Part shown: piece by piece, positions 12,768 through 49,114 of the stretch
How the letters are laid out: every line of letters begins with the position of its first letter
How positions within the stretch are numbered: the stretch's first letter is position 1
Source of the DNA: Deltaproteobacteria bacterium
GTDB taxonomy: Bacteria; Desulfobacterota; Syntrophia; Syntrophales; UBA8958
Direction: 5' to 3'
NCBI GenBank assembly: GCA_029553375.1
Contig: JAKPCH010000039.1
Span: forward strand, 1 to 64,000
DNA length: 64,000 bases
Notes under the pieces: generated by a model
What the model saw: only the letters and a program-made list of their open reading frames with translations
Databases searched by the model: none
What the model was told of the DNA's origin: nothing
Position numbers and translations under genes: made by a program

Positions 12768-14231
12768 ATGAGCCTTCGGATCTACAACACCCTGACGAGG
12801 AGAAAAGACGAGTTCAGACCCCTCAACCCGGGTAAGATCGGCATCTACACCTGCGGGATCACGGCCTACGATTACTGTCACGTGGGACACGCCCGCTCGG
12901 CCGTCGTCTTCGACGTCATCACGAGATTCCTGCGCTACCGGGGTTTCGAGGTCACCTACGTCAAGAACTTCACGGACATCGACGACAAGATCATCGCCAA
13001 GGCCAACGACCTGGGGGTGAACACCGCCGCGATCTCGGAGCGTTTCATCGCCGAGCACGACCGGGACATGGACGCCCTGGGCATCGTGCGCCCCACGGTC
13101 ACGCCGCGGGCCACGGAGAACATCGACGGGATGATCGCCCTCATCGAGCGGCTCCTCGAGAAGGGCCACGCCTATGTCGTGGACGGGGACGTCTACTACG
13201 CCGTCGAGTCCTTCCCCGGCTACGGGAAGCTCTCCTGCCGCAACATCGACGAGATGATGGCCGGGGCCCGCGTGGACGTGGACGAGCGGAAACGCAACCC
13301 CCTGGACTTCGCCCTCTGGAAGGCCAGCAAACCCGGCGAGCCCTGGTGGGAGAGCCCCTGGGGGAGGGGCAGGCCGGGGTGGCACATCGAGTGCTCCGTC
13401 ATGAGCCAGCGCTACCTGGGGGAGACCTTCGACATCCACGGGGGGGGCGAAGACCTCATCTTCCCCCACCACGAGAACGAGATCGCCCAGTCCGAGGGCG
13501 CCACGGGTAAACCCCTGGCCCGCTGGTGGGTCCACAACGGCTTCGTCCGCGTCAACAGCGAGAAGATGTCCAAGTCCCTCGGCAATTTCGCCACCATCAG
13601 GGAGATGCTGAAGGACTGGCACCCCGAGGTCATGAGACTCTTCATGATCTCGAGCCATTACCGCAGCCCCGTCGACTTCTCCCCCTCCTCCCTCGCCGAG
13701 GCGAGGAGCGGCATGAACCGTTTTTACGCCACCCTCAAGCTCCTCAAGGACATGAAGGGGGCCATGGGGGAGGCCGCGCCGGAGGGGAGGGACACTGAGC
13801 TGGCGGCGCGTCTCGACGAACTGCGGGGGCGTTTCGTCGAGGCCATGGAGGACGATTTCAACACCGCCCGGGCCCTGGGTTACGTCTTCGAGGCCGCGCG
13901 GACCGTAAACGCCCATCTCGGCGAGGTCCGGCCCCCCGGGGGTGGCTCCGCCCCGGCCGCGGTCCGCGCCGCCGAGGGGTTCTTCTCCGAGATAGGGGGG
14001 GTCCTGGGGCTCTTCGGCGAGGATCCCGACGAGTATTTCCGCCTGGACCGGGAACGGGAGGCGGCCAAGAGGGGCCTGGAGACGGGGGAGATCGAGAGGT
14101 TGCTCCACGAGCGTCGGGAGGCCAGGGCGGCCAAGGACTGGCAGCGGGCCGACGAGATCCGCCGCCGTCTCGCCGCCTGGGGGATCGCCATCAAGGACGC
14201 CCCCGAGGGGACGACCTGGCACTTTGCCTGA
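12768..14231 (+). CDS. cysS: Cysteinyl-tRNA synthetase
   Basis: A 487-residue class I aminoacyl-tRNA synthetase that charges tRNA-Cys. It shows the zinc-ligand cysteine in YTCGITAYD, the HIGH-type motif HVGHARS, HIECSVMS and FPHHENEIAQ for the active-site zinc, and KMSKSLGNF. The C-terminal DALR-type helical domain ends with the expected DEIRRRLAAWGI. Length is normal. An intact G8 tract at 13440-13447 lies inside the gene, a useful control for the frameshifts seen elsewhere in G tracts. Confidence 0.97.
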   Translation: MSLRIYNTLTRRKDEFRPLNPGKIGIYTCGITAYDYCHVGHARSAVVFDVITRFLRYRGFEVTYVKNFTDIDDKIIAKANDLGVNTAAISERFIAEHDRDMDALGIVRPTVTPRATENIDGMIALIERLLEKGHAYVVDGDVYYAVESFPGYGKLSCRNIDEMMAGARVDVDERKRNPLDFALWKASKPGEPWWESPWGRGRPGWHIECSVMSQRYLGETFDIHGGGEDLIFPHHENEIAQSEGATGKPLARWWVHNGFVRVNSEKMSKSLGNFATIREMLKDWHPEVMRLFMISSHYRSPVDFSPSSLAEARSGMNRFYATLKLLKDMKGAMGEAAPEGRDTELAARLDELRGRFVEAMEDDFNTARALGYVFEAARTVNAHLGEVRPPGGGSAPAAVRAAEGFFSEIGGVLGLFGEDPDEYFRLDREREAAKRGLETGEIERLLHERREARAAKDWQRADEIRRRLAAWGIAIKDAPEGTTWHFA

Positions 14232-14403
14232 GGCCGGCGATTAAATTTTATTCAGGATCCGCCCGGTGATGGGTATTTTTTATCCTCCCAAGGGGGAAAA
14301 GAAGGGTGCCGTCTTTTCCCTCTTTTCCAAAATTTCCTTACGATCCCGAATCTTTAGCACGACGGGGACACCGGCGGCCCAGATCTTGCGTTTCCCACAG
14401 GAC

Positions 14404-15723
14404 ATGAAAGGTTTCGCCCGAAAAACCTTCCGGGGATCGGCGGTCTTACTGGCGGTCCTTTTGCTCTTCGTCTCCGCGCCCCGGCCGTCGGCCGCCCAGG
14501 AAACCCTCCGGGAAGGGGAGCTGGTGGACCTCGAACGCTGCCTCAAGATCGCCCTCTCCCGGCACCCCTCCCTCCAGGCGGCGGCGCAGGCGGTCAAGGC
14601 CGGAGAGAGCCGCGTCGGCCAGGCAAAAGCCGCCTATTTTCCCCAGGTCACCTGGTCCACCTCGGCCAGCCGTACGGACCCCTACACCACCCCCGTCGGG
14701 GCCGAGGCCGCCAAGGGCGGCGATATCACCAACCAGTACCTCTCCTCCCTCAACCTCAGCCAGACCCTCTACGATTTCCAGAAGACGGCCCGCCAGGTCA
14801 GGATTCAGGACCTGGGGGTCCTCTCCGCCCGGGGGGATCTCGACATGACCCGCCTGAGCGTCACCCTCGGGGTACGCAAGGCCTACTACGACCTCCTTAA
14901 GGCCCGCCGCCAGAGGGAGGTCGCGGCGGAGACGGTGGAACAGTTCCAAAGGCACCTCGAGCAGGCCCAGGCCTTCTTCCGGGCGGGGACGAAACCGAAA
15001 ATCGACGTCACCAAGGGGGAGGTCGACCTCGGCAACGCCCGCCTGAACCTGGTCAAGGCCCAAAACGCCCTGAGTCTGGCGGTGGCCGCCCTTAACAACG
15101 CCATGGGCTACCCCGGCGCGCCCCCCTTCGTCGTCGCGGACGATCCCTCAGAGCCGGGGCCCCTGACGGCCTTCGAGGAGGCCCTGGAGAAGGCCTACAA
15201 GAACCGGCCGGACTTGAAGGCCGCCGTCGCCAAGCGCCAATCGGCCGAAGAGTCCGTGAGATTGGCGAAGACGGGATACTTCCCCAGCCTCACGGGCTCC
15301 GCCGGCGTGGGCTACGGGGGCCAGCAATTCCCCGTCGATCGGGGATGGACCGTCGGCGCCACCCTGAGTGTCCCTATCTTCAGCGGCCTGTCCACGCGCT
15401 ACCAGGTGGAGGAGGCCCTCGCCAACCTCCAGGCGGCCCGGGCCAACGAGGAGAACCTCCGGCAGGCCATCCACCTGGAGGTCCGCCAGGCCTGGCTCAA
15501 CTGGACGGAGGCGAAGGAGCGGCTCTCGACGGCCATGCTCACGGTCCGACAGGCCGAGGAGAACCGTGACCTGGCCACCGGGCGTTACGAAGCCGGCGTC
15601 GGCAGCGCCATCGAGGTCACCGACGCCATCGTGGCGTTCAACAACGCCAAGATGGATTACCTGGGCGCCCTCTACGACCTGAAGACGGCCCAGGCGACCA
15701 TGGAAAAGGCGATGGGGTTATGA
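14404..15723 (+). CDS. TolC-family outer-membrane efflux protein
   Basis: A 439-residue outer-membrane channel protein. After a signal peptide (residues 1 to about 31, ending SAAQ) it has two repeats of the OEP family: long alpha-helical hairpins (e.g. LDMTRLSVTLGVRKAYYDLL and LRQAIHLEVRQAWLNWTEAK) separated by beta strands. ATG 14404 was chosen because it places the signal peptide at the N terminus; the upstream frame looks non-coding. Its stop overlaps the start of the adaptor gene (ATGA), so it is translationally coupled to the exporter. It would form the outer-membrane exit duct of the MacAB-like system. Confidence 0.9.
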   Translation: MKGFARKTFRGSAVLLAVLLLFVSAPRPSAAQETLREGELVDLERCLKIALSRHPSLQAAAQAVKAGESRVGQAKAAYFPQVTWSTSASRTDPYTTPVGAEAAKGGDITNQYLSSLNLSQTLYDFQKTARQVRIQDLGVLSARGDLDMTRLSVTLGVRKAYYDLLKARRQREVAAETVEQFQRHLEQAQAFFRAGTKPKIDVTKGEVDLGNARLNLVKAQNALSLAVAALNNAMGYPGAPPFVVADDPSEPGPLTAFEEALEKAYKNRPDLKAAVAKRQSAEESVRLAKTGYFPSLTGSAGVGYGGQQFPVDRGWTVGATLSVPIFSGLSTRYQVEEALANLQAARANEENLRQAIHLEVRQAWLNWTEAKERLSTAMLTVRQAEENRDLATGRYEAGVGSAIEVTDAIVAFNNAKMDYLGALYDLKTAQATMEKAMGL

Positions 15724-16919
15724 AAAAAATCTCCCTGCGGAAAGGTCTTTTCATCGCCGCGGCGGTCCTGCTCGTCGTCGGCGGTCTGTTTTTGTCATAC
15801 CGTTATCTCGGCAAAAAAGAGACGCGGTACCGCACCGAGAAGGTGACGAGGGGCGACATAGCGGCCGTGGTGACCGCCACGGGCAAGGTGGACGCCGTGA
15901 CCACCGTCATCGTCGGCGCCCAGCTCTCGGGCATGATCAAGGAACTCTACGTGGACTACAACAGCGTCGTGAAGAAGGGTCAGCTCCTGGCCAGGATCGA
16001 CCCCACCATCTACGCGGCCCAGGTGGACCAGGCCAGGGCGAACCTCCTCCTGGCCAGGGCCAATCACGAGAAGGCCAAGGCCCAGCTCCAGGACGCCCGG
16101 CGCACCCTGAAGCGCAACGAGCAGCTCGTTGCGAAGAACTTCATCGCCCAGAGCGACGTCGACACGGCCCGCACCAACGTGGAGACGGCCGAGGCCCAGG
16201 TCGCCGCGGCCAAGGCCCAGGTGGGACAGGCGGAGGCGGCCCTCAGACAGGCCGAGACCAACCTCCGCTACACCCGGATCCTCTCCCCCGTGGACGGGGT
16301 CGTCATCTCGCGCAACGTCGACATCGGCCAGACCGTGGCGGCCAGTTTCCAGACCCCCACCCTCTTCAGCATCGCCCAGGACCTCACGAACATGCAGGTC
16401 ATCACCAGCGTGGACGAGGCCGACATCGGCCGCGTCCGTCCGGGACAGGCCGTGACCTTCACCGTGGACGCCTACCCGAACCAGGTCTTCAAAGGAAGGA
16501 TCCACGATATCCGCAACGCCCCCGTCACCGTCCAGAACGTCGTCACCTACGAGGTCATCGTGAGGGTGGACAACCGCCAGAACCTCCTCAAGCCGGGCAT
16601 GACGGCCAACGTCTCCATCGTCACGGACATCAGGGAAGGGGTGTTGCGGGTCCCCAACAGCGCCCTGCGCTTCCGGCCCGACGACAGGGGGTCCAAGGGC
16701 GCGGACCAACAAGCCCAGCGGGTGGAAAAGGGCCAGGGGGTCTGGGTCCTCGCCGGCGGTAAGATGAAACGCGTTTCCGTAAAAACGGGCATCAGCGACG
16801 GCAGCTTCACGGAGATCAGGGAGGGCGACCTCCGGGAGGGGGACCTGGTGATCACGGAGGCGATGGGTCGCGACAACAAGGCGACGCAGCGCCAGGCGCC
16901 GCCGCCCTTCATCCGTTGA
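15720..16919 (+). CDS. MacA/HlyD-type periplasmic adaptor
   Basis: A 399-residue membrane-fusion protein with one N-terminal transmembrane helix (about 8-27). A lipoyl-like half (VVTATGKVDAVTTVIVGAQ, VKKGQLLARID) is followed by a long coiled-coil hairpin rich in A, Q, K and E (about 100-185), then the second lipoyl half and beta-barrel (ILSPVDGVVISRNVDIGQTV). It bridges the ABC transporter and the TolC-like protein. It overlaps the upstream gene by four bases and precedes the ATPase gene by ten. Confidence 0.92.
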   Translation: MKKISLRKGLFIAAAVLLVVGGLFLSYRYLGKKETRYRTEKVTRGDIAAVVTATGKVDAVTTVIVGAQLSGMIKELYVDYNSVVKKGQLLARIDPTIYAAQVDQARANLLLARANHEKAKAQLQDARRTLKRNEQLVAKNFIAQSDVDTARTNVETAEAQVAAAKAQVGQAEAALRQAETNLRYTRILSPVDGVVISRNVDIGQTVAASFQTPTLFSIAQDLTNMQVITSVDEADIGRVRPGQAVTFTVDAYPNQVFKGRIHDIRNAPVTVQNVVTYEVIVRVDNRQNLLKPGMTANVSIVTDIREGVLRVPNSALRFRPDDRGSKGADQQAQRVEKGQGVWVLAGGKMKRVSVKTGISDGSFTEIREGDLREGDLVITEAMGRDNKATQRQAPPPFIR

Positions 16920-16929
16920 GAAAAAACCG

Positions 16930-17625
16930 ATGCTCATCGAGACCCGAGACCTGAGGAAGATCTACCAGGTGGGCGACACCGTCGTCGTCGCCCTCGACGG
17001 GGTGAACGTCGCGGTGGAGAAGGGGGAATTCCTGGGTGTCATGGGCCCCTCGGGCTCGGGGAAGTCCACCTTCATGAACGTCGTCGGGTGCCTCGACCAG
17101 CCCACCTCCGGTCAATACCTCTTCGAGGGCCGGGACGTGAGCCGCCTGGATCCCGACACCCTGGCGGAGATCCGGAACCGCAAGATCGGCTTCGTCTTCC
17201 AGGGGTTCAACCTCCTGCCCCGGGCCACGGCCCAGGAGAACGTCGCCCTCCCCCTCCTCTACAGCCGCGTCCCCGCCAAGGAGCGGGCCGAGAGGGCCAT
17301 GGCGGCCCTCAAGGCCGTCGGCCTCGAGGGGAGGGAGCACCACCGCCCCACCCAGCTCTCCGGGGGCCAGCAGCAGCGGGTGGCCATCGCCCGGGCCCTC
17401 GTCAACGACGCCGCCATCATCTTCGCCGACGAGCCGACGGGCAATCTCGACACCCGCGCCAGCAGGGAGATCATGGAGCTCTTCGTGCGGCTCAACGAGG
17501 AGAAGGGGATCACCGTCATCGTGGTGACCCATGACCCGGACACGGCTTCCTTCAGTAAAAGGATCATCCGCTTCCTCGACGGCCGCATCGTGGCGGACGA
17601 CAGGAACGGGGGGCAAGGGGCGTGA
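16930..17625 (+). CDS. MacB/LolD-type ABC transporter ATPase
   Basis: A 231-residue ATPase subunit. Walker A is GPSGSGKSTF, the signature is LSGGQQQRVAIARAL, Walker B is AIIFADEP followed by TGNLD, and the H loop is VVTHDP. The sequence belongs to the group of MacB, LolD and FtsE, which power extrusion from the inner membrane or periplasm. Here the ATPase and permease are separate proteins, unlike single-chain E. coli MacB. The stop codon overlaps the GTG start of the permease. Confidence 0.94.
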   Translation: MLIETRDLRKIYQVGDTVVVALDGVNVAVEKGEFLGVMGPSGSGKSTFMNVVGCLDQPTSGQYLFEGRDVSRLDPDTLAEIRNRKIGFVFQGFNLLPRATAQENVALPLLYSRVPAKERAERAMAALKAVGLEGREHHRPTQLSGGQQQRVAIARALVNDAAIIFADEPTGNLDTRASREIMELFVRLNEEKGITVIVVTHDPDTASFSKRIIRFLDGRIVADDRNGGQGA

Positions 17626-25050: not shown

Positions 25051-26781
25051 ATGACGAATTATCTCTTCAAAGGAATGGCCAGCGTCGACCGTTTCATCCA
25101 CGCCCGTCAGGCCAAGTTCACCATGAGCATCTCGCCGGCGGCGATGATGCTCGCCTATCTCGACTGGCTGGTGAACATCCTCAACTCACCCGGCAAGCAG
25201 CTCCTGCTGCTGGAGGAATTCAACAACAGCCTCCAGAGGCTCATCGGCAACACCGCCCAGGAGATCTTCTACGGCAGACCACCCGAGGAGGCGAAGGACA
25301 CGGACCCCCGTTTCCGGGCCAAGGAGTGGCAGCTCTGGCCCTTCAACTTCATGTACAAATATTTTCTCCTCTACGAGAAGATGTGGCAGAGCGCCACGAC
25401 GGACACCCCCGGCGTCTCCAAACACCACCAGAACGTCATGTCCTTCATGGGCAGACAGCTCCTGGACATGTTCTCCCCCTCCAACTTCCTCTTCACCAAC
25501 CCCGTCCTCATCAGGACCACCATGGAGCAGGGGGGGGCCAACCTGATCCAGGGCTGGCAGAACTTCTGCGAGGACCAGATCAGGCGTCTGGCGGGGATGA
25601 GGCCCGTCGGGGCGGAAAACTACCAGGTAGGCAAGCAGGTGGCCGTCACGCCGGGGAAGGTGGTCTTCAGGAACCGTCTGTTGGAACTCATCCAGTACAC
25701 GCCGACGACGGAGAAGGTCTACGCCGAACCCGTCCTCATCGTGCCCGCCTGGATCATGAAGTACTACATCCTCGACCTCTCCCCCCACAACTCCCTCGTG
25801 AAGTTTCTCGTCGACCGGGGTCACACGGTCTTCATCATCTCCTGGAAAAACCCCCGGTCCGACTATCGCCAGACGGATCTGGAGGACTACCGCGTCGAGG
25901 GCGTCATGGCGGCCATCGACGCCGTCTCCGCCATCGTGCCGGGACGCCAGATCCACACCGTCGGCTACTGCCTCGGCGGCACCATCCTGAGCATCGCCGC
26001 GGCCACCATGGCCCGGGACGACGACCAGCGCCTCCGGTCCATGACCCTCTTCGCCGCCCAGACGGACTTCGAGGAGGCGGGGGAACTGATGCTCTTCATC
26101 GACGAGAACCAGGTCAACTTCCTCGAAGACATCATGTGGGACCAGGGGTACCTCGACGCGAAGCAGATGGCGGGGGCCTTCCAGGTCCTGCGCTCCAACG
26201 ACCTCTTCTGGTCGCAGATCATAAGGGACTACTTCATGGGCACCCGTCTCCCCATGAACGACCTGATGGCCTGGAACGCCGACACGACCCGCATGCCCTA
26301 TCGGATGCACAGCGAATATCTGCGGAAGCTCTTCCTCAACAACGACCTCTCCGAGGGGCGGTACAAGGTGGGGGGCCGGGAGATCACCATCCGGGACATC
26401 TGCGCCCCCGTGTTCATCGTCTCCACCATCCAGGACCACGTGGCCCCCTGGCGCTCCGTTTACAAGTTCAACCTCTACTCCAACCCCGTGGAACTCACCT
26501 TCGTCCTCTGCAGCGGCGGTCACAACGCGGGGATCATCAGCGAGCCCGCGAACACGAAACGGACCTACCGCATCTCCACCCGGAGGCGGGGTGACAAATA
26601 CATAGATCCCGACACCTGGCTCGATGAGACGCCGGAGCAGAGGGGTTCCTGGTGGATCCCCTGGCAGGAGTGGCTCGTCAATCATTCCTCGCCCGAGCAG
26701 GTCGATCCCCCCTCCATGGGCGCGGGCAAGCTCTACCGCGTCCGCATGGACGCCCCGGGATCCTACGTGTTCGAGGAGTGA
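25051..26781 (+). CDS. phaC: Polyhydroxyalkanoate synthase, class I type
   Basis: A 576-residue cytoplasmic enzyme that polymerises hydroxyacyl-CoA into PHA granules. The lipase-box-like HTVGYCLGGT holds catalytic C307. The catalytic Asp is D462 (DHVAPW) and the His is H491 (GGHNAGI). The N-terminal half matches the PhaC_N domain (WQNFCEDQIRRLAG, VVFRNRLLELIQY). ATG 25051 follows CGGAGGA. Length fits class I, which needs no PhaE or PhaR partner. It contains an intact G8 tract (25530-25537). A phasin-like protein is encoded at 7801-8067. The 3' end overlaps the hemerythrin gene by 19 bases. Confidence 0.95.
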   Translation: MTNYLFKGMASVDRFIHARQAKFTMSISPAAMMLAYLDWLVNILNSPGKQLLLLEEFNNSLQRLIGNTAQEIFYGRPPEEAKDTDPRFRAKEWQLWPFNFMYKYFLLYEKMWQSATTDTPGVSKHHQNVMSFMGRQLLDMFSPSNFLFTNPVLIRTTMEQGGANLIQGWQNFCEDQIRRLAGMRPVGAENYQVGKQVAVTPGKVVFRNRLLELIQYTPTTEKVYAEPVLIVPAWIMKYYILDLSPHNSLVKFLVDRGHTVFIISWKNPRSDYRQTDLEDYRVEGVMAAIDAVSAIVPGRQIHTVGYCLGGTILSIAAATMARDDDQRLRSMTLFAAQTDFEEAGELMLFIDENQVNFLEDIMWDQGYLDAKQMAGAFQVLRSNDLFWSQIIRDYFMGTRLPMNDLMAWNADTTRMPYRMHSEYLRKLFLNNDLSEGRYKVGGREITIRDICAPVFIVSTIQDHVAPWRSVYKFNLYSNPVELTFVLCSGGHNAGIISEPANTKRTYRISTRRRGDKYIDPDTWLDETPEQRGSWWIPWQEWLVNHSSPEQVDPPSMGAGKLYRVRMDAPGSYVFEE

Positions 26782-38407: not shown

Positions 38408-39625
38408 ATGGCCGAAGTCCCGAAAGACACAGCCCCCGCGACGGATCCCGAGACCTCGAGGAGAAGGAGGTCCCTGAGGTTCATCATCCTCATGGGTCTC
38501 GTCAGCCTCCTGGCCGACGTGACCTACGAGGGGGCCCGAAGCATCACCGGTCCGTTTCTCGGCCTCCTGGGGGCCAAGGCGGCGTGGATCGGCATCGTCG
38601 CCGGCGCCGGGGAGCTGGTGGGCTACGGCCTGAGATTCGTCTTCGGTTACCTGAGCGACCGCACGGGCCGTTACTGGGCCATCGCCATCCTCGGATACAC
38701 CGTCAACCTCCTGGCCGTGCCGGCCCTCGCCCTCTGCGACCGCTGGGACCTGGCGGCGGCCCTCATCGTCGCCGAACGTCTCGGAAAGGCCGTCAGGACC
38801 CCCGCCCGGGACGCCATGCTCTCCCATGCGACGGGGGAGGTGGGCCGGGGATGGGGTTTCGGCCTCCACGAGGCCCTGGATCAGACGGGGGCCGTCCTCG
38901 GACCCCTCCTCATGGGCCTCGTCCTCTTCATCAAGGGCGATTATCGCCTCGCCTTCGCCCTCCTGGCGATCCCGGCCGTGGCGGCCATCGCCCTCGTCCT
39001 CCTGGCCCGCCTCCTCTACCGATCGCCCCGGGACATGGAAAGGAGCCCGGCCCGGGAGAAGGGCCCCTTCCCCCGGGCGTTCTGGTTCTACCTCCCCGCC
39101 GTGGGCCTCATCGCGGCGGGCTACATCGATTATCCCCTCATCGCCTATCACTTCGGGACGGGACGGGACGTGGCCCCGCGCTGGATCCCCCTCTTCTACG
39201 CCCTCGCCATGGCCGCCGACGCCGTCGCCGCCCTCGTCTTCGGCCGCCTATTCGATAAGAAAGGCCTGGGGATCCTGGCCCTGTCCGTCGTCACCTCCTC
39301 TCTCTTCGCACCCCTGGTCATGCTGGGGGGATTCTGGGCCGCCGCCTTGGGCATGACCCTGTGGGGCATCGGCATGGGCGCCCAGGAATCGATCATGAGG
39401 GCCGCCGTCGCCGACATGGCGCCCCTCGAGCGGCGCGGCACGGCCTACGGGATCTTCAACGGCGTCTACGGCCTGTGCTGGTTCGCCGGCAGCGCCGCCA
39501 TGGGTTATCTTTACGATTTTTCGCCCCTGGCTGCGGCGTCCCTCTCCCTTGCCCTCCAGCTCTGCTCCCTGCCGTGGCTGATGGCCGTGGGGCGGGTTTC
39601 CCGGCGAGGATTCAAGAGAAGATGA
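38408..39625 (+). CDS. Major facilitator superfamily transporter
   Basis: A 405-residue inner-membrane protein with about 12 transmembrane helices. The MFS loop motif between helices 2 and 3 is seen as GYLSDRTGRYWA, and a related segment is GRLFDKKGLGIL in the second half. An N-terminal cytoplasmic tail of about 20 residues rich in P, T and R precedes helix 1. The substrate is unknown. It is divergent from the copper genes, so a link to metal stress is possible but unproven. The 3' end overlaps that of the cytochrome b/c hybrid gene by 14 bases. Confidence 0.88.
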   Translation: MAEVPKDTAPATDPETSRRRRSLRFIILMGLVSLLADVTYEGARSITGPFLGLLGAKAAWIGIVAGAGELVGYGLRFVFGYLSDRTGRYWAIAILGYTVNLLAVPALALCDRWDLAAALIVAERLGKAVRTPARDAMLSHATGEVGRGWGFGLHEALDQTGAVLGPLLMGLVLFIKGDYRLAFALLAIPAVAAIALVLLARLLYRSPRDMERSPAREKGPFPRAFWFYLPAVGLIAAGYIDYPLIAYHFGTGRDVAPRWIPLFYALAMAADAVAALVFGRLFDKKGLGILALSVVTSSLFAPLVMLGGFWAAALGMTLWGIGMGAQESIMRAAVADMAPLERRGTAYGIFNGVYGLCWFAGSAAMGYLYDFSPLAAASLSLALQLCSLPWLMAVGRVSRRGFKRR

Positions 39626-41468
39626 GGGACCAGAAGATATGGACCAACAGGGCCAGACCGAGGAGGAGGCTCAAGAGGCCGAAGGTGGAACCGAGCAGTT
39701 TGAGGAAGATGCCGGGGTAGGGGCGTTTCATCTCCTCAATGCCCCCCTCGGCCTGCAGGCGCTCGTAGTGTAGGGGACGCTGTTGCCTCAGGTCGGCCAG
39801 GGTGTAGGTGCCGGTGAAGATGATGCGGTCCATGGGGAACTTGTCCGGGATGAAGTGGGTGTTGAAGAAGTGGACCGTGAAGATGAAGAGGGCCGCCAGG
39901 AGGGCCTCCTCCGAATGGACCAGGGCGGCGACGTTCAGGACCCACCCCGGGAAGAGGTATGACGACCACTCCGGCATCCACAGGAGGATCCCCGAGCCCC
40001 CGATGGCGAACATCCCCCAGAAGACGGCCCAGAAATCGAATTTCTCCCAATAGGTCCAGCGTTCGAACCTCGGCATCTCCCCCCGGTCGAAGAACCAGAG
40101 GAACATGCCCTTCATGTCCTCCCAGTCTTTCCGGTTCGGGAAGAGGGAGTCGGGCCCCAGGAGCCGTTCCCGAAAACCGCGAAGACCCAGACCCTTCGGG
40201 AAGAGGTAACGCACCCCCACCCAGGCCACGTAGGCGACGACGGCCATGAGGACCAATGCCGCCCCGCGGTGGAAAAGTCCGGCCTGATGGGCCCCTCCCC
40301 AGAGGCGGATCACGATCTCCGCCCAGGGCGAGTCGTGGTACTTCAGGGGGAAACCCGTCATCACGAGGGTGAAGAAGGAGAGGATCAAGAGGACGTGGAG
40401 GAGTCTCTCCCGGGGCGTGAAACGCTGGATCTGCACCGTCTCCTCCCCCGCGGCGCAGACGGCCGGAGGCGCCAACCCCATCTTCTCCCGCCTATGGTTC
40501 TCCCAGTAGCTCTTGCGCCACCACAAAAAGGTGTGGATCCAGAAGAAGCACAGGGTGCCGGCGAGGAGGGCCGACATGAAGACGAAGGTCCAGAAGAGGG
40601 CGGGGTAGCGGCGGCGGTCCCGATAGTCGGGATGGGCCTTGTACTCGACGAAGCGGGGATGGAAGCCCCTGTGGCAGCGGCCGCAGTTCTCCGCGAGGTT
40701 GGCGCTGTGGATGCTGGAACGGGGGTCGCTCTTCGGCAGGATGTTGTGGGTCGTGTGGCAATCGGCGCACCCCGCCACGGCGGCGGGATAACCGATCCCC
40801 TGCACCTTGCCGTGATAGGTCTGCTCGTAGTAGGCGACGATCTCGGCCGAGAGGTTGTTCCGCTTCGTCAATTCGGGATCGGCGTGACAGCCCTTGCAGT
40901 TGCGGCTGTAGAAGGCCCGGGCCTCCTGGGGGTACCTGTCGAGGGAGACGTGGAAAACCCGCGTGTCATGGAGTCCGTGGCAGTCGGCGCAATCCGCCGC
41001 GTCCCGGTTCCCCCTCAAGACGGCCTCGGCATGGCCCGAGGAGACGTACTCTTCGTTGCCGTGACAGGCCGTGCACTTCTCGATGACCGCCCGTTTGTCC
41101 CTCCCCTTCCCGCCGGTGAGGGCGTGGATGTCCCTATGGCAGTCGCTGCAGCGGAAATCGAGCTGGAGGTAATGGAAATTCTGCCGGTACTGGGCGGCGA
41201 TCTGGGTGTGGCAGCGGCCGCAGTCCACCCGGGGAGGCTTCTTTTCGCCCCTCATGTGTCTCTTTGCGTCCGTGACCGCCCCGTGACAGCTTATGCAACC
41301 GTTGCCGCCGTGGACGGACTTCTTGAAGGCCCGGCTGTAGAGGTAATCGTCGTGACAGTCGAGACATTCCGGGGCGGCGCCCCGGGCCGCGGCGACGACC
41401 CCGAGGAGGACCGCCAAGACCAGGACCGCAACCACCGGCCAGGGGAGTTTGCCGCCTCTTTTCGTCAC
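39612..41468 (-). CDS. Nine-haem cytochrome c fused to a cytochrome b membrane domain
   Basis: A 618-residue hybrid. After a signal anchor (about 9-31) the periplasmic part has nine CXXCH sites (CLDCH, CISCH, CGRCH, CSDCH, CTACH, CADCH, CKGCH, CADCH, CGRCH). The second half has about five or six transmembrane helices with His residues in them (RLLHVLLILSFFTLVMTGFP, LVHSEEALLAALFIFTVHFF), as in b-type cytochromes of formate dehydrogenase and thiosulfate reductase. It would oxidise or reduce quinone at the membrane and exchange electrons with the soluble cytochromes of this operon. Its start overlaps the end of the rhodanese gene (ATGA). Confidence 0.92.
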   Translation of the reverse strand: MTKRGGKLPWPVVAVLVLAVLLGVVAAARGAAPECLDCHDDYLYSRAFKKSVHGGNGCISCHGAVTDAKRHMRGEKKPPRVDCGRCHTQIAAQYRQNFHYLQLDFRCSDCHRDIHALTGGKGRDKRAVIEKCTACHGNEEYVSSGHAEAVLRGNRDAADCADCHGLHDTRVFHVSLDRYPQEARAFYSRNCKGCHADPELTKRNNLSAEIVAYYEQTYHGKVQGIGYPAAVAGCADCHTTHNILPKSDPRSSIHSANLAENCGRCHRGFHPRFVEYKAHPDYRDRRRYPALFWTFVFMSALLAGTLCFFWIHTFLWWRKSYWENHRREKMGLAPPAVCAAGEETVQIQRFTPRERLLHVLLILSFFTLVMTGFPLKYHDSPWAEIVIRLWGGAHQAGLFHRGAALVLMAVVAYVAWVGVRYLFPKGLGLRGFRERLLGPDSLFPNRKDWEDMKGMFLWFFDRGEMPRFERWTYWEKFDFWAVFWGMFAIGGSGILLWMPEWSSYLFPGWVLNVAALVHSEEALLAALFIFTVHFFNTHFIPDKFPMDRIIFTGTYTLADLRQQRPLHYERLQAEGGIEEMKRPYPGIFLKLLGSTFGLLSLLLGLALLVHIFWSLIFS

Positions 41469-42220
41469 TTTCCCGCCTTTTTACTGCGGCCCTCTTTGGC
41501 CTTCATGGCCAGCCAGGCCCTCATGCCCCCGAAGAGGGGCGCCACCCTGTACCCCCTGCCGGCCAGGTAGCTGGCGGCCAGGTGGGAACGAAAGCCGCGG
41601 TTGTCCACCAGGATCAGGGTCCTGTCGAGGGGCAGTTCCCTCCAGCGCCGATGGAGCTGGTAAAGGGGCAGGTTCAGGGCCCCCGGGATATGTCCCTGGG
41701 CGAAGCGGTCCTCCGGGCGCAGATCGACGACCAGGAGGGGCTCCCTCAGATCCAGGCGCCTCTCGAGGGCCGCCGGCTTGAGGGAGGGGATCGCCAACCT
41801 CTCCACCCGCTGGACCGAAACCGTTTCGTACCCTTCCCTCTTCCAGGCCGGCAGTCCCCCCTCGAGGACGTAGACGGCCTTGTAGCCCTTCTTGACGGCC
41901 GTCTCGGCCGCCGTGCAACTCCTGTCCCCCCTCTCGCTCTCGCAGAAAAACACGACGGGGCGGTCCTTGTCGGGGGGAAGCTCGCCGATCCGCGCCGCGA
42001 ACTCCTCGGCGGGGATGCAGAGGGAACCGGCGATACTGTGATCGAGACACTCGATGAGGCTCATGTTGTTGATCACCACCGGGGGCCGGTCCTTGGCGGC
42101 CAAGGCCGCCGCCAACTCCCGGGGCGTGATGGGCTTCCAGTCCCCCGCCGCCGCCGGTACCGGGGAAAGGAGCGCCAGGAACACCAAGACGACGAAGAGG
42201 ATAACGGTCCTCTCATTCAT
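41465..42220 (-). CDS. Exported two-domain rhodanese
   Basis: A 251-residue protein with a signal peptide (cut near PAAAG-D) and two rhodanese folds. The first domain has a cysteine at the active-loop position (VFFCESERGDRSC). In the second, the loop reads LILVDNRGFRSH, with Asp where the cysteine belongs, so only the first is likely active. ATG 42220 follows AAGGAGAT and overlaps the end of the seven-haem cytochrome gene by eight bases. It probably handles sulfane sulfur or a related species in the periplasm for the cytochromes around it. Confidence 0.87.
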   Translation of the reverse strand: MNERTVILFVVLVFLALLSPVPAAAGDWKPITPRELAAALAAKDRPPVVINNMSLIECLDHSIAGSLCIPAEEFAARIGELPPDKDRPVVFFCESERGDRSCTAAETAVKKGYKAVYVLEGGLPAWKREGYETVSVQRVERLAIPSLKPAALERRLDLREPLLVVDLRPEDRFAQGHIPGALNLPLYQLHRRWRELPLDRTLILVDNRGFRSHLAASYLAGRGYRVAPLFGGMRAWLAMKAKEGRSKKAGK

Positions 42221-44471
42221 GGGCCGGTATCTCCTTGAGACCCCAGTCCTCCATCTGGGACGCCGCGTGGGGGGGGCGGGGGTCTGGGTACTGTTCCTTG
42301 AGGAAAGAACCGATACGGCGGATCTTCGCCTTGGCGAAGAAGGGGGACCCCTCGCGGTGACAATCCAGACAGCCCTGGGGGTGTCCCTTGGCCCCGTAGG
42401 TCTTTCCTCTCTCCAGGGGGGCCACGGCGTGGTGGGCGCCGAAGACCCTCTCCCGCGCCGGCGACACGAAGGTCGTCGCCACCACCCGACCGTCCCTGAG
42501 CTCATAGAGACGATCTCCCACCATCACCACCCTCTTGAAACCGGCCTTCGCGAGGGCCGCCAGGACCTCCCCGGCATCCCGGCGGCGGTCCGGGCGCGGG
42601 GATACCTTTTCCCCTTCGGTGCGCCCGGCCCCTTTCCCCTTGCCGGCCGACCGGTAGGCGGCCATGACGTCCAAAAGGGGGATGGGTCTGATGGAGCCGT
42701 CTTCCTGCCTCTCGCCGAACCAGGCGGCCTCCCTTCCCGCCGGGGGAAAGACGGGACCCGCCGTCCGGGGCCGCTCCGCCAGGGGGACGACCTTCCCCCC
42801 CCTGAGGGCCCAGACGCGGTCCGCCACGAAGACGACGGGGCCGAGGCCCTGGCGGGAAAGGGCCCTGATCATCCTCTCCACGTCGCCGGGCGTCGCCACG
42901 GTATGGATCCGCTCCCTCTTTCCCCCGACGGCCGCGACCTCGACGGCGGAAAGGCCGCCCGCCCTCTGAAACGCCCTCCGCACGGCCTCGGTCTCGATGG
43001 GTCTCACGGCGCCGTTCGGGAGGAGGCGGCCGAACCATTGGGTGACGAGGGGAACGGCGGGCGCGTAGACGGTCCCATGAGCCCCTTTTCGGCGGACGAT
43101 CCAGGGCCGCCACGGCTCCGCCGCCGGCCGGGTCCAGTCGACGCCCCCCGCGGCCAACTCCAGGCGGTCGGACGTGAAGACGTTTGCGACGCCCGTCGAC
43201 AAATCACGGAGGTAGGCGGCCCGCCCCGGCAGGGTCGGGACGTGGCAGGCCTGGCAGGAAATGACGGCGAAATGGAAAGAGGCCCGGGGAAACTTCTCCC
43301 GGTGCCGACGTTCGGGGTTGCGGGCCTGCCGGGGCATGCCGGGCCGGGGGGGACGGTATTGCCCCTCGACGTGACACTCGACACAACCCTTCATCCCCAC
43401 CCCGTCCAGGTCATCCCTCACGGTCCCGTCCGCGGAGAAACCCTTGGCGATCTGGTGCTGCAGGCGCCGCTCCTTCGTGTCCCCCGCCAGGGGGTGACAG
43501 TCGATGCACTCGAAACCGGCGGCGAGATGGACATCGAAGGCCGGTTCGTACAGGGTGCCCGAGCGACGGGCTTCCGGAGACCGGTGACACTGGAGGCAGG
43601 CGGCCGAAGACACCTCCCGGAGGATCCGCTCGCCCCGGAACATACCGTCCTTCGTGAACAGGGAGCGGTCCTGCCAGCGGTAGCGAACGACGGGACGGGA
43701 CTTCACGTTCCACCCCCCCGCCGAGAGGCCCGCCCCTCCACCGTCGGCCCGGGGGCCGGAGGCGGAAAAGACGGCGCCGTCTATGACCCCGAGGCCCGCC
43801 CCCGCCGTCGCGGCCCAGCGGTAGTTGCGCCGGCCCAGCTCGGCATTGCGCGCCCCCAGACGGTATCCCGGGAGGTGACATATCAGGCAGTCCCCCTCCA
43901 CGACGCCCGTGAGGCCGAAGCGGCTGCGGCCGTCGGGCGTGGACCGGGAGGTGTAATCCCCGTCGCCGGGATCCTTGTTTTCCACCTCCTTGTCGACATG
44001 GTTGCGGGAATAATCGGCCCTCCCATCGGGTCCCCTCCCGTACTCGAGGGGTCCGCCCCCGGGATGGGAGAGGGACCCGCCGAGGGCGATCCAGTCGAAG
44101 GTGGAGAGGGCCTCGCCCCTTGGCGGTCCCGGGTTTCTCTTGGGTGCCACGAGGGGTGAGGCGCCCTCGATGACGGCGTCGCGGCCGAAACGCCCGGGTG
44201 AGAGGACCCAGGGACGAAAGCGGTCGTAACCGTCCCTCATCTCGTCGAAACCCTGCTGGAAGTGGTACCCCCTGGTAATGGTCCCGTAGCCGTGACACCC
44301 GCCGCAGGTCCGCCTGGGGCTGTAGGGGTCGAGGGAGTTGACGGCGGGGGTGATCCTTTCCCCCCGCCCGTTCCTCAGCCATACATCCTGGTGCCGTCCC
44401 GCCGCGGCGGGCATGGCCAGGGCCGCCCCCAGGACGACCGACAGGACGGCAACGGAGACCTTCTTGGGCAC
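42213..44471 (-). CDS. Seven-haem periplasmic cytochrome c
   Basis: A 752-residue exported protein with seven CXXCH sites (CGGCH, CLICH, CLQCH, CIDCH, CVECH, CQACH, CLDCH) in a long chain with wide gaps between sites, plus extra His residues for second axial ligands. The signal peptide (cut near PAAAG-R) fits GTG 44471, which has AGGGGTGAG upstream; TTG starts lie seven codons earlier. Between sites six and seven is an insert of about 250 residues without haem sites that may bind a substrate or partner. It is co-transcribed with two rhodaneses and two other cytochromes. Confidence 0.85.
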   Translation of the reverse strand: MPKKVSVAVLSVVLGAALAMPAAAGRHQDVWLRNGRGERITPAVNSLDPYSPRRTCGGCHGYGTITRGYHFQQGFDEMRDGYDRFRPWVLSPGRFGRDAVIEGASPLVAPKRNPGPPRGEALSTFDWIALGGSLSHPGGGPLEYGRGPDGRADYSRNHVDKEVENKDPGDGDYTSRSTPDGRSRFGLTGVVEGDCLICHLPGYRLGARNAELGRRNYRWAATAGAGLGVIDGAVFSASGPRADGGGAGLSAGGWNVKSRPVVRYRWQDRSLFTKDGMFRGERILREVSSAACLQCHRSPEARRSGTLYEPAFDVHLAAGFECIDCHPLAGDTKERRLQHQIAKGFSADGTVRDDLDGVGMKGCVECHVEGQYRPPRPGMPRQARNPERRHREKFPRASFHFAVISCQACHVPTLPGRAAYLRDLSTGVANVFTSDRLELAAGGVDWTRPAAEPWRPWIVRRKGAHGTVYAPAVPLVTQWFGRLLPNGAVRPIETEAVRRAFQRAGGLSAVEVAAVGGKRERIHTVATPGDVERMIRALSRQGLGPVVFVADRVWALRGGKVVPLAERPRTAGPVFPPAGREAAWFGERQEDGSIRPIPLLDVMAAYRSAGKGKGAGRTEGEKVSPRPDRRRDAGEVLAALAKAGFKRVVMVGDRLYELRDGRVVATTFVSPARERVFGAHHAVAPLERGKTYGAKGHPQGCLDCHREGSPFFAKAKIRRIGSFLKEQYPDPRPPHAASQMEDWGLKEIPAHE

Positions 44472-44513
44472 CGTCTCACCCCTGTTCAACAAGACCCTTC
44501 CGAGACTCGGGCG

Positions 44514-45413
44514 TCAGGGCTCCATGGGGGCCGCCGGGTCCTTGGCCCACTCCATCATGGAGCCGTCGTAGACCTTGACGTTCTTGTATCCCAACAGCTC
44601 CCTCATCATGAACCACCAGGCGGTGCAGAACTTGCCCGTGTCGCAGTAGAGGATGATCTCCCTGTCCCTGTCGGCGCCGACGGCGGCGGCGGCTAGGGCG
44701 GCGAGGGCGTCCTTGGCCTTGTAAGTCCCGTCGGCCTCGTACATGGTCGAGGTCGGCAGGCTCACGGCCCCCTTGATGTGGCCGAGACGTTCGACGAAGG
44801 GCAGTTTTTTCTTCCCCTCATAGAAGTCCCTTTCCCGGACGTCGACGATGACGCCCTTGCCCAGGGCGGCCGCCACGGCGGCCTTTGTCACGACCAGGTC
44901 CTTGTGGAACCGACCGCGGTAGTCCTTGGCCCGCGGCCGAACGGCCTCGGTGGAGACGGCCTTGCCGTCGGCGACCCACTTGTCGTAGCCTCCCGAGAGG
45001 AGGGACACCTCCGACACCCCGGCGTAGATCAAGGTCCAGGCCACACGGGTGGCATCGACGCGGTCGGCGGGCGTGGCCGTCTTCCCCACCACGACGACCT
45101 TCGAAGCGGGTTCGATACCGGCGGAGCCGAGGACATCCCTCAGGTCGTCATCGGCGGGCAGTTCGTTGAGGAGCTCGCCGCGCTTGATCGCCCAGGACCC
45201 GTAGGCGACGTTGACGGCCCCGGGTATATGGCCGCCTCGATACTCCTCCACCTTGCGGACATCGAGGACGATGACCTTGTCGAGGTTCTTCTCGAGCCAG
45301 GCGGTGGTGACGACGGGCTCCAGCTCCCGGGCCGAAGCCGTCGCGGCCAGGGCGCCGACGAAGATCAGGCCCGCCAGGACGCTCAAAAATTTGCCCCTCT
45401 TTTTCATGATCAT
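44514..45413 (-). CDS. Exported thiosulfate sulfurtransferase-like rhodanese
   Basis: A 299-residue protein with a signal peptide (cut near ATASA-R) and two rhodanese domains. The first, structural domain has VVVVGKTATPADR with no cysteine in the loop. The second has the active cysteine in LYCDTGKFCTAWW. The loop CDTGKFC carries a second cysteine, unusual in rhodaneses, which might allow a trisulfide or a metalloid link. ATG 45413 follows AAAGGAGGT; a second ATG two codons on is equally good. It lies 18 bases after the selenocysteine-candidate cytochrome gene. Confidence 0.9.
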   Translation of the reverse strand: MIMKKRGKFLSVLAGLIFVGALAATASARELEPVVTTAWLEKNLDKVIVLDVRKVEEYRGGHIPGAVNVAYGSWAIKRGELLNELPADDDLRDVLGSAGIEPASKVVVVGKTATPADRVDATRVAWTLIYAGVSEVSLLSGGYDKWVADGKAVSTEAVRPRAKDYRGRFHKDLVVTKAAVAAALGKGVIVDVRERDFYEGKKKLPFVERLGHIKGAVSLPTSTMYEADGTYKAKDALAALAAAAVGADRDREIILYCDTGKFCTAWWFMMRELLGYKNVKVYDGSMMEWAKDPAAPMEP

Positions 45414-45431: not shown

Positions 45432-46676
45432 TTAAGGCTTGGCCGGTATCGGTCGCGGTTCGTAGAGGACCCCCGCGTTGGACCGCGAACCGTTCTTGAT
45501 GAGCCGCTCCTTGACGATAAAACCCCTTTTTTCCTCATGACAGGCCTCGCAGGACCGGGTGCGGTCGGTCCGCTTGCGGATGTTGTGGACCGGCGCGTCC
45601 CAGTAGTTGGGCAAACGGTCGTAGTGGGTCATGGTGACGCCCTGTTTCTTGAAGGAGTCCCTGACCGTGGGGACGAGGCGCAGGGTCGTGACCGTGCGGT
45701 TGTTCTTCGGGCTCAGGCCCAGGACGAAATCGGCCTTGGACTGGGCGCCGCCCTCGTGGCACTCGAAGCAGTGGCGGTACTCCCCGGCGGAGTGACAACC
45801 GTAACAGCTCACCTTCCCCTCGTGGCGGAGATGGGCGATCCTCGTCGTGAGGCGCTCCTCGTTGCCCGGGCGGTGGCAGTCCCGGCAGGAGGGACGCCCC
45901 TTGACCTCCTCCTTGAAGCGGTAGGCCCTGCCGTCGCCGTGGAGGGCCCCGGCGCTGTGGCAGTCCATGCACATCATCCCCTTCTGGTAATGGACGTCCG
46001 CCTTTCCCCCGTAATCCCCCGTGTATTCCGGGTAGACCCGGCCGCCGTGGCAGAAGGCGCAGGTCTTCCCCTCGTCCCGCCTCACGAAACGGTGGCCCTT
46101 GATGAGACCGATACTGATCCCCCCCACGGCCGGGGCCTTGACGTGACAGGAGCCGCAAGTGGCGTGGCAGGACCGGCAGGACTGCTCGAAGACCCTCTCG
46201 TTGTAATCCCGCGCCTCCTTGTGGTTCATCCTCTTGGTGACGACGTGGCGGAAACCCGCCGTCGTGTAATGGAGGGCTTTGGAGTAGCGGGCGGCCGTCG
46301 CGCCGTGGCACTTGCCGCACAGGGAAAGGTCTTCCGAGGGGCGCTTCACCTTGCCCCGGTGGGCCAGGTCCTTGTCCGTTTGCGTGTCGTCCCCGCCGTG
46401 GCACGGGGTGCACCCCCCGGCAAAGTGGACATCGTCTTTCAGGAGGCCCGCGTCCACGAGAAAGCCCCTATGGTAGGTCTCCGCCGAGACCGGCGGAGGG
46501 GGGCCCGCTCACCCGCCCTCCTCGGCGTGGAGATCGGGCACCTTGCAGAGCCTCTTCAGGGCCCCTTCATCGGTGTGACAGGCGACGCAGGAACTCCGGC
46601 GGCCGGCGCCCCCGTCGGCTACCATGGTCAAAAGGGTCAGGAAAACTATCACCAACGCCCCTAAAGGATACCTCAT
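45432..46676 (-). CDS. Eleven-haem cytochrome c with in-frame UGA (candidate selenoprotein)
   Basis: Read through the UGA at 46511-46509 (codon 56), this is a 414-residue periplasmic cytochrome. The part before the UGA has a signal peptide (MRYPLGALVIVFLTLLT...), one haem site (CVACH) and DLHAEEGG. After the UGA the same frame goes on as AGPPPPVSAETYHRGF and holds ten more CXXCH sites: CTPCH, CGKCH, CRSCH, CGSCH, CAFCH, CMDCH, CRDCH, CYGCH, CFECH, CEACH. A SECIS-like hairpin follows the UGA and a good promoter precedes the gene, so selenocysteine is the best explanation. Alternatives are a true nonsense mutation or a separate gene from GTG 46457, which would lack a signal peptide and so could not mature its haems. 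It is the first gene of the operon. Confidence 0.75.
46479..46498 (-). promoter_or_regulatory. SECIS-like hairpin after the in-frame UGA
   Basis: On the minus strand, ten bases after the UGA, CTCCGCCG, loop GTCT, CGGCGGAG form a perfect 8-bp stem. The top reads GGUCU in RNA, the tip I recall for the E. coli fdhF SECIS, and the distance from UGA is similar. A lower GCCCC/GGGGC pairing could extend it. There is no bulged U as in E. coli. Confidence 0.65.
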
Positions 46677-46746: not shown

Positions 46747-46775
46747 ATTATAAAGGCTCCCGCCGCCGATCTCAA
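46747..46775 (-). promoter_or_regulatory. Promoter of the cytochrome-rhodanese operon
   Basis: On the minus strand, TTGAGA (46775-46770), exactly 17 bases, TATAAT (46752-46747). This is one of the best sigma-70-like promoters in the window. It would give a leader of about 64 bases before ATG 46676, which supports that start. Confidence 0.7.
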
Positions 46776-46876: not shown

Positions 46877-49114
46877 ATGGGCGAATGGAGAAAGACGGCC
46901 TGCGTGCTCTGCGCTCAGAACTGCGGCCTCGAGGCCTATGTGGAGGGCGACACGATGGTCAAGGTCCGGGGCGACAGGGACAACCCCCGTTCCCGGGGCT
47001 ACGTGTGCCGCAAGGGCATGAACGTCGTCTTCCACCAGCACCACCGGGACCGCCTCACCCATCCCCTCAAGAGGGTCGGGTCCTCCTTCGTGAAGATCTC
47101 CTGGGAGGAGGCCGTCGGCGAGATCGCCTGGAAACTCAAGGAGATCGTCGAGCGGCACGGGCCCCGTTCCTTCGCCTACATGGGCGGCGGGGGCCAGGCC
47201 TGCCACTTCGAGGCGGCCTTCGGCGTCCGCCTGATGAGGAAACTCGGCTCCCGTTACCACTACAGCGCCCTCGGCCAGGAGCTGACGGGGATCTTCTGGG
47301 CCTCGGGGAGGTTCACGGGCCGCCAGTACCTCTTCACCATCGCCGACGAGGGGGAAGCGGACATGATCCTCGCCGTGGGCTGGAACGGCATGGAGAGCCA
47401 CCAGATGCCCCGGGCGCCGGTGGTGTTGCGGGAGTTTTCCCGTGACCCCGGCAAGCTCCTCGTCGTCATCGACCCCCGGAAATCGGAGACGGCCCGCATC
47501 GCCGACATCCACCTGGATCTCAGGCCCGGCACCGACGCCCTCCTGACCAGGGCCATGATCGCCGTCATCCTTCAGGAGGGTTGGGAGGACCGGGAGTACC
47601 TGGCCCGTCACACGGTGGGTCACGAGGAAATCAGGTCCCTCTTCGCCGGCTTCGACGCCCCCGAGGCGGTGAGGGTGTGCGGCCTGGATTTCCAGAGGGT
47701 CCGGGAGGTCTGCCGCCTCCTGACCACGAGGAGGTGGTGCATGCACACCGACCTGGGGGTGTACATGAACCGCCACAGCACCGCCGCCTCTTATCTCCAC
47801 CTCCTCCTGGCGGCCGTCTGCGGCCGCCTCTGCGTCCGGGGCGGCAACGTCATCCCCGGTCACCTCATGCCCATCGGCGCCCACACGGACGAGCGGGACC
47901 CGAAGACCTGGCGGACCGTCGCCACGGGTTTCCCCGCCCTCATGGGGGTCTTCCCGCCCAACGTCCTCCCCGAGGAGATCACCAGCGGCCACCCCGAGCG
48001 GGTGCGGGCCGTCCTCTGCTGTCAGTCCAACCCCCTGCGCTCCTACGCCGACACGACGGCCTACGAGGAGGCCTTCCGGGCCCTCGACCTCCTCGTGACC
48101 TGCGAGCTCGCCATGACGGAGACGGCGGCCCTGTCCCACTACGTCCTCCCCGCCCGGTCGGGCTACGAGTCCTGGGACGGGACGTTCTTCGCCTGGACCT
48201 TCCCGGAGGTCTATTTCCAGATGCGCCGCCCCGTCGTGGAGGCGAGGGGGGAACCCCTCGAGCTGGGGGAGATCCACGTGCGCCTCGCCGAGGCCCTGGG
48301 CTTCATACCCCCCCTGCCCGCCGATCTCCACGAGGCCGCCGCCAAGGACCGTCTGACCTTCGGCCTGGCCCTGATGGGGTTTCTCCGTGAAAACCCCCAG
48401 GCCCTCGCCGACATGCCCTTCATCCTGGCCAAGACCCTGGGACCGCGCCTCGGATCGGTCCACCTCGCGGCCCTCTGGGGCCTCCTCCAGGGGGCGCCGA
48501 AGGACTTCCGGAAGGCCGCCGCCCGCGCCGGTTTCAAGACCGGCCCCACCATGGGCGAGGAGTTGTTCCGGGCCGTCCTGGACCACCCCGAGGGCCTCAT
48601 CATCGCCGTGGCCGACGGCGAAGACAACTTCTCCCTCATCGCCCACGAGGACAAACGCCTCCATATCCACATCCCCGAGATGGACGACTGGGTGAGGGAG
48701 ATAGAGCCAGGGCGTGAAGAGGAGGCCCTGCGCCCCGATCCCCGCTTCCCCATGATCCTCCAGGCGGGACGCCACATGCGGATGAACGCCAACACCCTCA
48801 TGCGCGATCCCGCCTGGAACGAGGGCAAGCGGGCCTGCACGGTCCTCGTGAACCCCGCCGACGGCGAAAGGCTGGGCATCGGCGACGGCGACCAGGTACG
48901 GGTCGTCACGGCGGCCGGCGAGGCCGTCATCGAGGCGGAGGTGACGGAGGCGACGCGGGAGGGGCAGGTGATCATACCCCACGGCTTCGGTCTCGTCTAT
49001 CAGGGGGTCATCTACGGGGTGAACGTCAACCGCCTCACCAAGGCCGCCCACCGCGACCCCTTCGCGGCGACGCCCCTCCACCGGTACGTCCCCTGCCGTC
49101 TGGAAAAGGTCTGA
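46877..49114 (+). CDS. Molybdopterin oxidoreductase (DMSO reductase family)
   Basis: A 745-residue molybdenum or tungsten enzyme with no signal peptide, so probably cytoplasmic. The N-terminal [4Fe-4S] ligands are CVLCAQNC and YVCRKG. Further features are the pterin-binding ARSGYESWDG-like segment, CCQSNPLRSY, and the C-terminal dinucleotide-binding domain (RMNANTLMRDPAWNEG, ACTVLVNPADGERLGIGDGD). The family oxidises or reduces small molecules, or hydrates acetylene; the substrate cannot be named. No partner subunit is adjacent. It is divergent from the cytochrome operon, 200 bases apart, and may share its regulation. Confidence 0.9.
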   Translation: MGEWRKTACVLCAQNCGLEAYVEGDTMVKVRGDRDNPRSRGYVCRKGMNVVFHQHHRDRLTHPLKRVGSSFVKISWEEAVGEIAWKLKEIVERHGPRSFAYMGGGGQACHFEAAFGVRLMRKLGSRYHYSALGQELTGIFWASGRFTGRQYLFTIADEGEADMILAVGWNGMESHQMPRAPVVLREFSRDPGKLLVVIDPRKSETARIADIHLDLRPGTDALLTRAMIAVILQEGWEDREYLARHTVGHEEIRSLFAGFDAPEAVRVCGLDFQRVREVCRLLTTRRWCMHTDLGVYMNRHSTAASYLHLLLAAVCGRLCVRGGNVIPGHLMPIGAHTDERDPKTWRTVATGFPALMGVFPPNVLPEEITSGHPERVRAVLCCQSNPLRSYADTTAYEEAFRALDLLVTCELAMTETAALSHYVLPARSGYESWDGTFFAWTFPEVYFQMRRPVVEARGEPLELGEIHVRLAEALGFIPPLPADLHEAAAKDRLTFGLALMGFLRENPQALADMPFILAKTLGPRLGSVHLAALWGLLQGAPKDFRKAAARAGFKTGPTMGEELFRAVLDHPEGLIIAVADGEDNFSLIAHEDKRLHIHIPEMDDWVREIEPGREEEALRPDPRFPMILQAGRHMRMNANTLMRDPAWNEGKRACTVLVNPADGERLGIGDGDQVRVVTAAGEAVIEAEVTEATREGQVIIPHGFGLVYQGVIYGVNVNRLTKAAHRDPFAATPLHRYVPCRLEKV

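Follow-up and report, generated by a model that had tools for sequence, protein, structure and literature searches.

Selenocysteine-containing c-type cytochromes are already known. ExtKL of Geobacter (NF040886) was proposed as one in 2007 (PMC1914089), and both GSU2204 and a selenocysteine-containing octahaem type are listed in an inventory from 2026 that covers 119 selenoprotein families of prokaryotes (PMC13188914). Nearly all selenoproteins are said to have a cysteine homologue (PMC13188914); ExtKL is described as having no non-selenocysteine homologues and lies near a gene for an exported rhodanese, ExtH (PMC1914089, PMC5877670, PMC6148476). In both respects it resembles the cytochromes described here, and like them it is a multihaem c-type selenocytochrome of deltaproteobacterial anaerobes.

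The window is the whole 64,000-nt stretch of DNA that was analysed, and its numbering is used for coordinates throughout. Positions 45432–46676 very probably encode one exported 11-haem c-type cytochrome with selenocysteine at a UGA codon (46511–46509). The 2026 inventory (PMC13188914) does not include the family to which this predicted protein belongs, none of the NCBIfam models scores it above cut-off, and no mention of this cytochrome was found in passages of three papers on selenoproteins of sulfate reducers (PMC2702500, PMC5109826, PMC8318568). It is apparently a new and undescribed selenoprotein family, built differently from the known selenocysteine cytochromes.

The reading frame and its relatives

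The features of the gene are as follows.

45432..46676, minus strand: predicted selenocysteine-containing 11-haem c-type cytochrome gene, ATG at 46676 and TAA at 45434–45432 (from the frame, CXXCH count and homologues)
46611..46676 (end approximate), minus strand: signal peptide, a hydrophobic N-terminus (from the sequence)
46509..46511, minus strand: in-frame UGA, predicted selenocysteine codon, residue 56 (column TGA in 89 of 92 distinct full-length members)
46747..46775, minus strand: sigma-70-like promoter, TTGAGA-17-TATAAT (consensus match)
46479..46498, minus strand: bSECIS-like hairpin, 8-bp stem, loop GUCU at 46490–46487 (from folding, a recoding test and the bSECIS criteria)

When TGA is translated as U, the frame runs for 415 codons and contains no stop other than a single TGA before its TAA. 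That sole in-frame TGA is codon 56, and the product would have 414 residues if selenocysteine is inserted. The initial annotation had described a signal-peptide section with one CXXCH, the UGA, and ten further CXXCH sites continuing to 45432, preceded by a promoter; all were found in place, giving 11 CXXCH sites in total, and the promoter, located at 46775–46747, has 11/12 matches to the consensus (0.3 expected per shuffle). The product has both features of the multihaem c-type class, CXXCH motifs and an export signal, with PF14522 and PF22113 above cut-off, and nearly all homologues likewise have a hydrophobic N-terminus upstream of the first CXXCH. When the window was screened coarsely, by composition, for joins across TGA codons, only two other sites came up, both resembling ordinary gene junctions. 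Transcribed divergently from the cytochrome gene is a molybdopterin oxidoreductase of the formate dehydrogenase/DMSO reductase superfamily (46877–49114, plus strand), which falls under every NCBIfam cut-off shown.

Relatives of the gene are widespread. A first search of 60 relatives gave matches in 28, and the full-length matches among these are 50–61% identical by the search's figures and contain exactly one in-frame TGA, the sole exception being that in genome G027 (36%). Of the 155 genomes of the class, 66 had members in a profile search (A1), as did 48 of a sample of 395 from the phylum. Two distant members come from metagenome-assembled genomes filed under Chloroflexi and Acidimicrobiaceae; the TGA is kept in both, and both genomes have selA. 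No match to the family was found among plasmids. Two variant forms were seen. The first is a fusion, present in one family of the order (L047:5164–6990; also G064, G077, G078, G080, G083, G085 and G086), in which the predicted selenocysteine cytochrome lies behind an extra haem-containing N-terminal part; its open frames are 604–610 codons long, and L047 has 17 CXXCH sites. The second is a divergent second copy (L137 in G098:C103 and L148 in G097:C122) that keeps the TGA within a motif approximating GxGU[AT]GPPPRV, in genomes that also contain an ordinary copy.

The TGA occupies the same column in 89 of the 92 distinct full-length members placed on the tree. The remaining three are continuous through the site with a sense codon, TGG (Trp) in L034, GCA (Ala) in L118 and TAC (Tyr) in L119, and these represent three separate changes on the tree; L034 and L118 are nested among TGA members on starred branches, and L119 is on a long branch of uncertain placement. 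The expectation that the UGA column would hold either UGA or cysteine in homologues is thus borne out in its first part and not in its second, as there is no cysteine homologue among those read and the alternatives are Trp, Ala and Tyr, once each. In the genome of the Ala member, which is 74% complete, no selA or selB scores above cut-off; the genomes of the Trp (G027) and Tyr (G481) members have both.

The surrounding residues are also conserved. The motif around the predicted selenocysteine is GG-U-AG in the window gene and GEG-U-[AG]G in the family, and in clade A it extends to GEG-U-AG-x-PP-x-V, in which the G before U, the G two after it, the PP and the V are invariant in 63 genes. The selenocysteine would sit on this Gly-rich loop between haems 1 and 2. 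An AlphaFold model has low confidence at the loop (about 54), which is probably flexible. Comparison of the model with folds in the PDB returned no usable match; at the level of sequence profiles, solved cytochromes match only weakly, over portions of the haem region.

The source genome (2.4 Mb in 96 contigs) contains all four of the genes selA, selB, selC and selD, whose presence had been proposed as a check on the selenocysteine reading. The profile scores are 601 bits for selA, 370 bits for selB and 389 bits for selD, and selD itself carries an in-frame TGA; the tRNA-Sec scores 75 bits, above its gathering score, and is called by ARAGORN as tRNA-SeC with anticodon TCA. Among member genomes, selA is present in 69 of 72 (67 above cut-off), as well as in the genomes of four further members that include those filed under Chloroflexi and Acidimicrobiaceae. 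Since selA is also present in 137 of the 155 genomes of the class, its co-occurrence with the cytochrome within the class is non-discriminating and was rejected as evidence. In two genomes selA and the cytochrome gene lie on the same strand about 1.26 kb apart, with selA first in G249:C1 (selA 13351–14706, cytochrome 15961–17172) and the cytochrome first in G372:C19 (22581–23795, selA 25058–26407).

The hairpin downstream of the UGA

The initial annotation had pointed to a perfect 8-bp stem capped by GUCU ten bases past the UGA, and this structure is present at 46498–46479. It consists of CUCCGCCG-GUCU-CGGCGGAG, with all 8 pairs formed and the stem beginning 10 nt past the UGA. Bacterial SECIS (bSECIS) elements are recognised by a loop of 3–9 nt, a stem of 4–16 bp, a G within the first two loop positions, a UGA-to-loop distance of 16–37 nt and a minimum free energy of -7.5 kcal/mol or below (PMC13188914). 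The window hairpin satisfies all of these, with a GUCU loop, 8 bp, a spacing of 18 nt and a centroid energy of -16.7 kcal/mol. A bSECIS-like hairpin is present in 91 of 96 genes, the loop being at least 16 nt from the UGA in 89 of these and 15 nt away in two, and the hairpins of the other 5 of 96 fail the bSECIS model. A search of Rfam returned nothing relevant at the hairpin.

Two further lines of evidence indicate that the structure itself is maintained. First, the region was recoded synonymously using each gene's own codon usage. For the window hairpin this gives a z of -4.4 (p 0.002), and for 96 homologues the mean z is -2.47, compared with -0.21 to +0.02 at six control positions in the same genes. 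(A dinucleotide shuffle of the window hairpin alone gives a z of about -0.8, which for a single GC-rich sequence is uninformative, and the synonymous-codon null was used instead.) Codon usage and protein sequence do not account for the hairpin, which is under selection in its own right. Second, in a second clade, with the motif U-G-G, the stem sequence differs from that of clade A and both halves still pair. Within this clade 95.2% of stem cells are paired (24 distinct rows), and the covariation score is 0.330, against 0.134 +/- 0.022 when shuffled (0/500) and at most 0.151 when slid; one divergent row, L120, with its hairpin in another register, was excluded from the count. Clade A has little two-sided covariation in the hairpin, because its proline-rich protein motif fixes most pairs, so the case for covariation is drawn from the second clade and from the contrast in stem between the clades.

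The second clade (L111–L150) also reveals an effect on the protein. VAPLEP, coded GGCTCC..GGAGCC, is found in some members and VEPLAP, coded GGAGCC..GGCTCC, in others. Two amino acids have been swapped together, as a paired stem would require, and the SECIS pairing is here shaping the protein sequence.

The proposal that the UGA is read as selenocysteine in an exported cytochrome is thus upheld on three counts, namely the selenocysteine machinery, the column-conserved TGA, and a hairpin that meets the bSECIS definition, is conserved and covaries. From these sequence data we place high confidence in selenocysteine insertion at 46511–46509, which would be directed by the hairpin following the UGA.

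Gene neighbourhood and possible function

Downstream of the cytochrome gene, on the same strand, lie four genes that recur at other loci.

44514..45413, minus strand: exported tandem-rhodanese protein, the next gene downstream (PF00581; next gene in 24 of 28 mapped loci)
42213..44492, minus strand: exported multihaem cytochrome (Cyt2) with no NCBIfam match (conserved in 13 loci)
41465..42220, minus strand: second exported tandem-rhodanese protein (PF00581; conserved in 14 loci)
39612..41468, minus strand: multihaem c-type domain fused to a formate-dehydrogenase-gamma/cytochrome-b561-like membrane domain (conserved in 17 loci)

For the second rhodanese gene the listed ORF extends to 42505, and its signal peptide indicates a start near 42220. 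In the product of 39612–41468, TIGR01583 and PF01292 are below cut-off and PF14522 is above; this membrane protein is likely the link to the quinone pool.

A rhodanese gene directly follows the cytochrome gene in 24 of the 28 loci mapped (L049 and L158 share one genome). In three further loci a multihaem cytochrome gene lies between the two, and in the Chloroflexi locus an upstream ORF belongs to the same BLAST cluster as a rhodanese, such that an exported rhodanese is found in every gene cluster mapped. The neighbouring rhodaneses vary in type, being either tandem or a single-domain 149-residue form, and the association has therefore been kept while the sequence changes. Other genes are found near the operon in particular branches: ResB-like and cytochrome c assembly (PF01578) genes in L152, L153, L157 and L158, and, in one branch, a gene for a DUF3034 protein that follows two rhodaneses beside the cytochrome (L163:9814–10740, L164 and L167).

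Because a rhodanese adjoins the cytochrome, we tentatively suggest, from the gene neighbourhood only, that the selenol handles a chalcogen, most likely sulfane sulfur, together with the rhodanese. The selenol would be a redox site binding a chalcogen species, most likely sulfane sulfur in the form of thiosulfate, polysulfide or persulfide, and the sulfane sulfur would be exchanged between the selenol and the exported rhodanese encoded alongside. Electrons could then travel along the haem chain, in one direction or the other, between the selenol and the operon's membrane cytochrome b-c protein, which would connect them to the quinone pool. A selenocysteine exposed on a Gly-rich loop, paired with a dedicated rhodanese, might form a perselenide site wired through the haems, by which sulfur chemistry in the periplasm is coupled to the quinone pool, in a family without cysteine homologues; this fuller picture is speculative.

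It is also conceivable, if unlikely, that the protein is a selenocysteine cytochrome whose selenocysteine acts not in sulfane sulfur chemistry but in the reduction of selenite or tellurite, a role proposed for the Geobacter ext cluster, or of extracellular metals. The Ext cluster likewise pairs a rhodanese (ExtH) with a selenocysteine cytochrome (ExtKL), and without ExtI the reduction of selenite and tellurite is impaired (PMC5877670, PMC6148476); the best NCBIfam matches of the present family are to ExtM, ExtN and ExtO, all far under cut-off. However, these sequence matches cover generic haem regions and omit the selenocysteine loop, and mapping of the operons, as distinct from a profile search, identified no ExtI-type porin.

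Other readings of the UGA and relation to known selenocytochromes

Three other explanations of the TGA were weighed against selenocysteine insertion. The first is that it is a true stop separating two translationally coupled genes, one for a short mono-haem peptide and one for a downstream 10-haem protein. A possible GTG start lies 17 codons past the UGA, and a conserved operon was the alternative offered for ExtKL in 2007 (PMC1914089). Nonetheless, this arrangement is very improbable. First, the frame is kept in 97 distinct cases, without any TAA or TAG at the site. Second, the protein sequence is conserved right after the UGA, ahead of any start codon, and the next in-frame ATG is far off (93 codons in the window gene, with a median of 45.5 in the family). 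Third, the downstream cytochrome would be left without a signal peptide. Fourth, the three members with a sense codon read straight through the site. Finally, a stop would not account for a conserved, covarying hairpin with SECIS geometry.

The second is that the UGA is read through as tryptophan or another ordinary residue, for which the TGG of L034 might seem a precedent. L034 is nested among TGA members, the remaining two sense codons specify Ala and Tyr, and the hairpin would go unexplained in genomes with full selenocysteine machinery, making such readthrough extremely doubtful. The third, a sequencing error or a decayed pseudogene in a draft assembly of 96 contigs, has a negligible likelihood, as genomes from several phyla, assembled independently, share the TGA at this column and keep the coding frame intact and conserved on both sides; sequencing error is refuted by these homologues.

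Read as a selenocysteine cytochrome, the protein may be compared with those already described. The best NCBIfam matches are to two proteins of the ext cluster, the 10-haem ExtN (NF040967) and the 12-haem ExtM (NF040943), which 12–14 of 15 members match at E 0.01 with 31–34 bits. These matches cover part of the haem region and not the selenocysteine region, and score 31.1 bits against a cut-off of 200 for ExtN and 34.4 against 800 for ExtM. Among the same 15 members there is no match at E 0.01 to the ExtKL model (NF040886), and none to TIGR04315, the tetrathionate-reductase-family octahaem type with selenocysteine, or to NF041027 (GSU2204), although both of these are likewise selenoproteins with haem motifs (PMC13188914). 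TsoB (NF045694), a selenoprotein resembling a rhodanese/DsbD fusion, joins rhodanese chemistry to selenocysteine but is not a cytochrome; its model has weak similarity to the neighbouring rhodanese genes only (42–48 bits against a cut-off of 805).

Two things may have kept the family from notice: many selenoprotein screens depend on cysteine homologues, which it lacks, and gene callers cut its genes at the UGA. In many Desulfobacterota genomes these genes are probably annotated, wrongly, as two fragments. The family would be a further way of building selenocysteine into a multihaem electron-transfer protein. ExtKL has five haems, the UGA and then a non-haem C-terminal part, whereas the 11-haem family has one haem, the UGA and then ten haems, and no SECIS was recognised in ExtKL in 2007, in contrast to the clear SECIS here. 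In this family, as in the ext cluster of Geobacter, a selenocysteine cytochrome is paired with an exported rhodanese, and the recurrence of this pairing suggests chemistry common to both.
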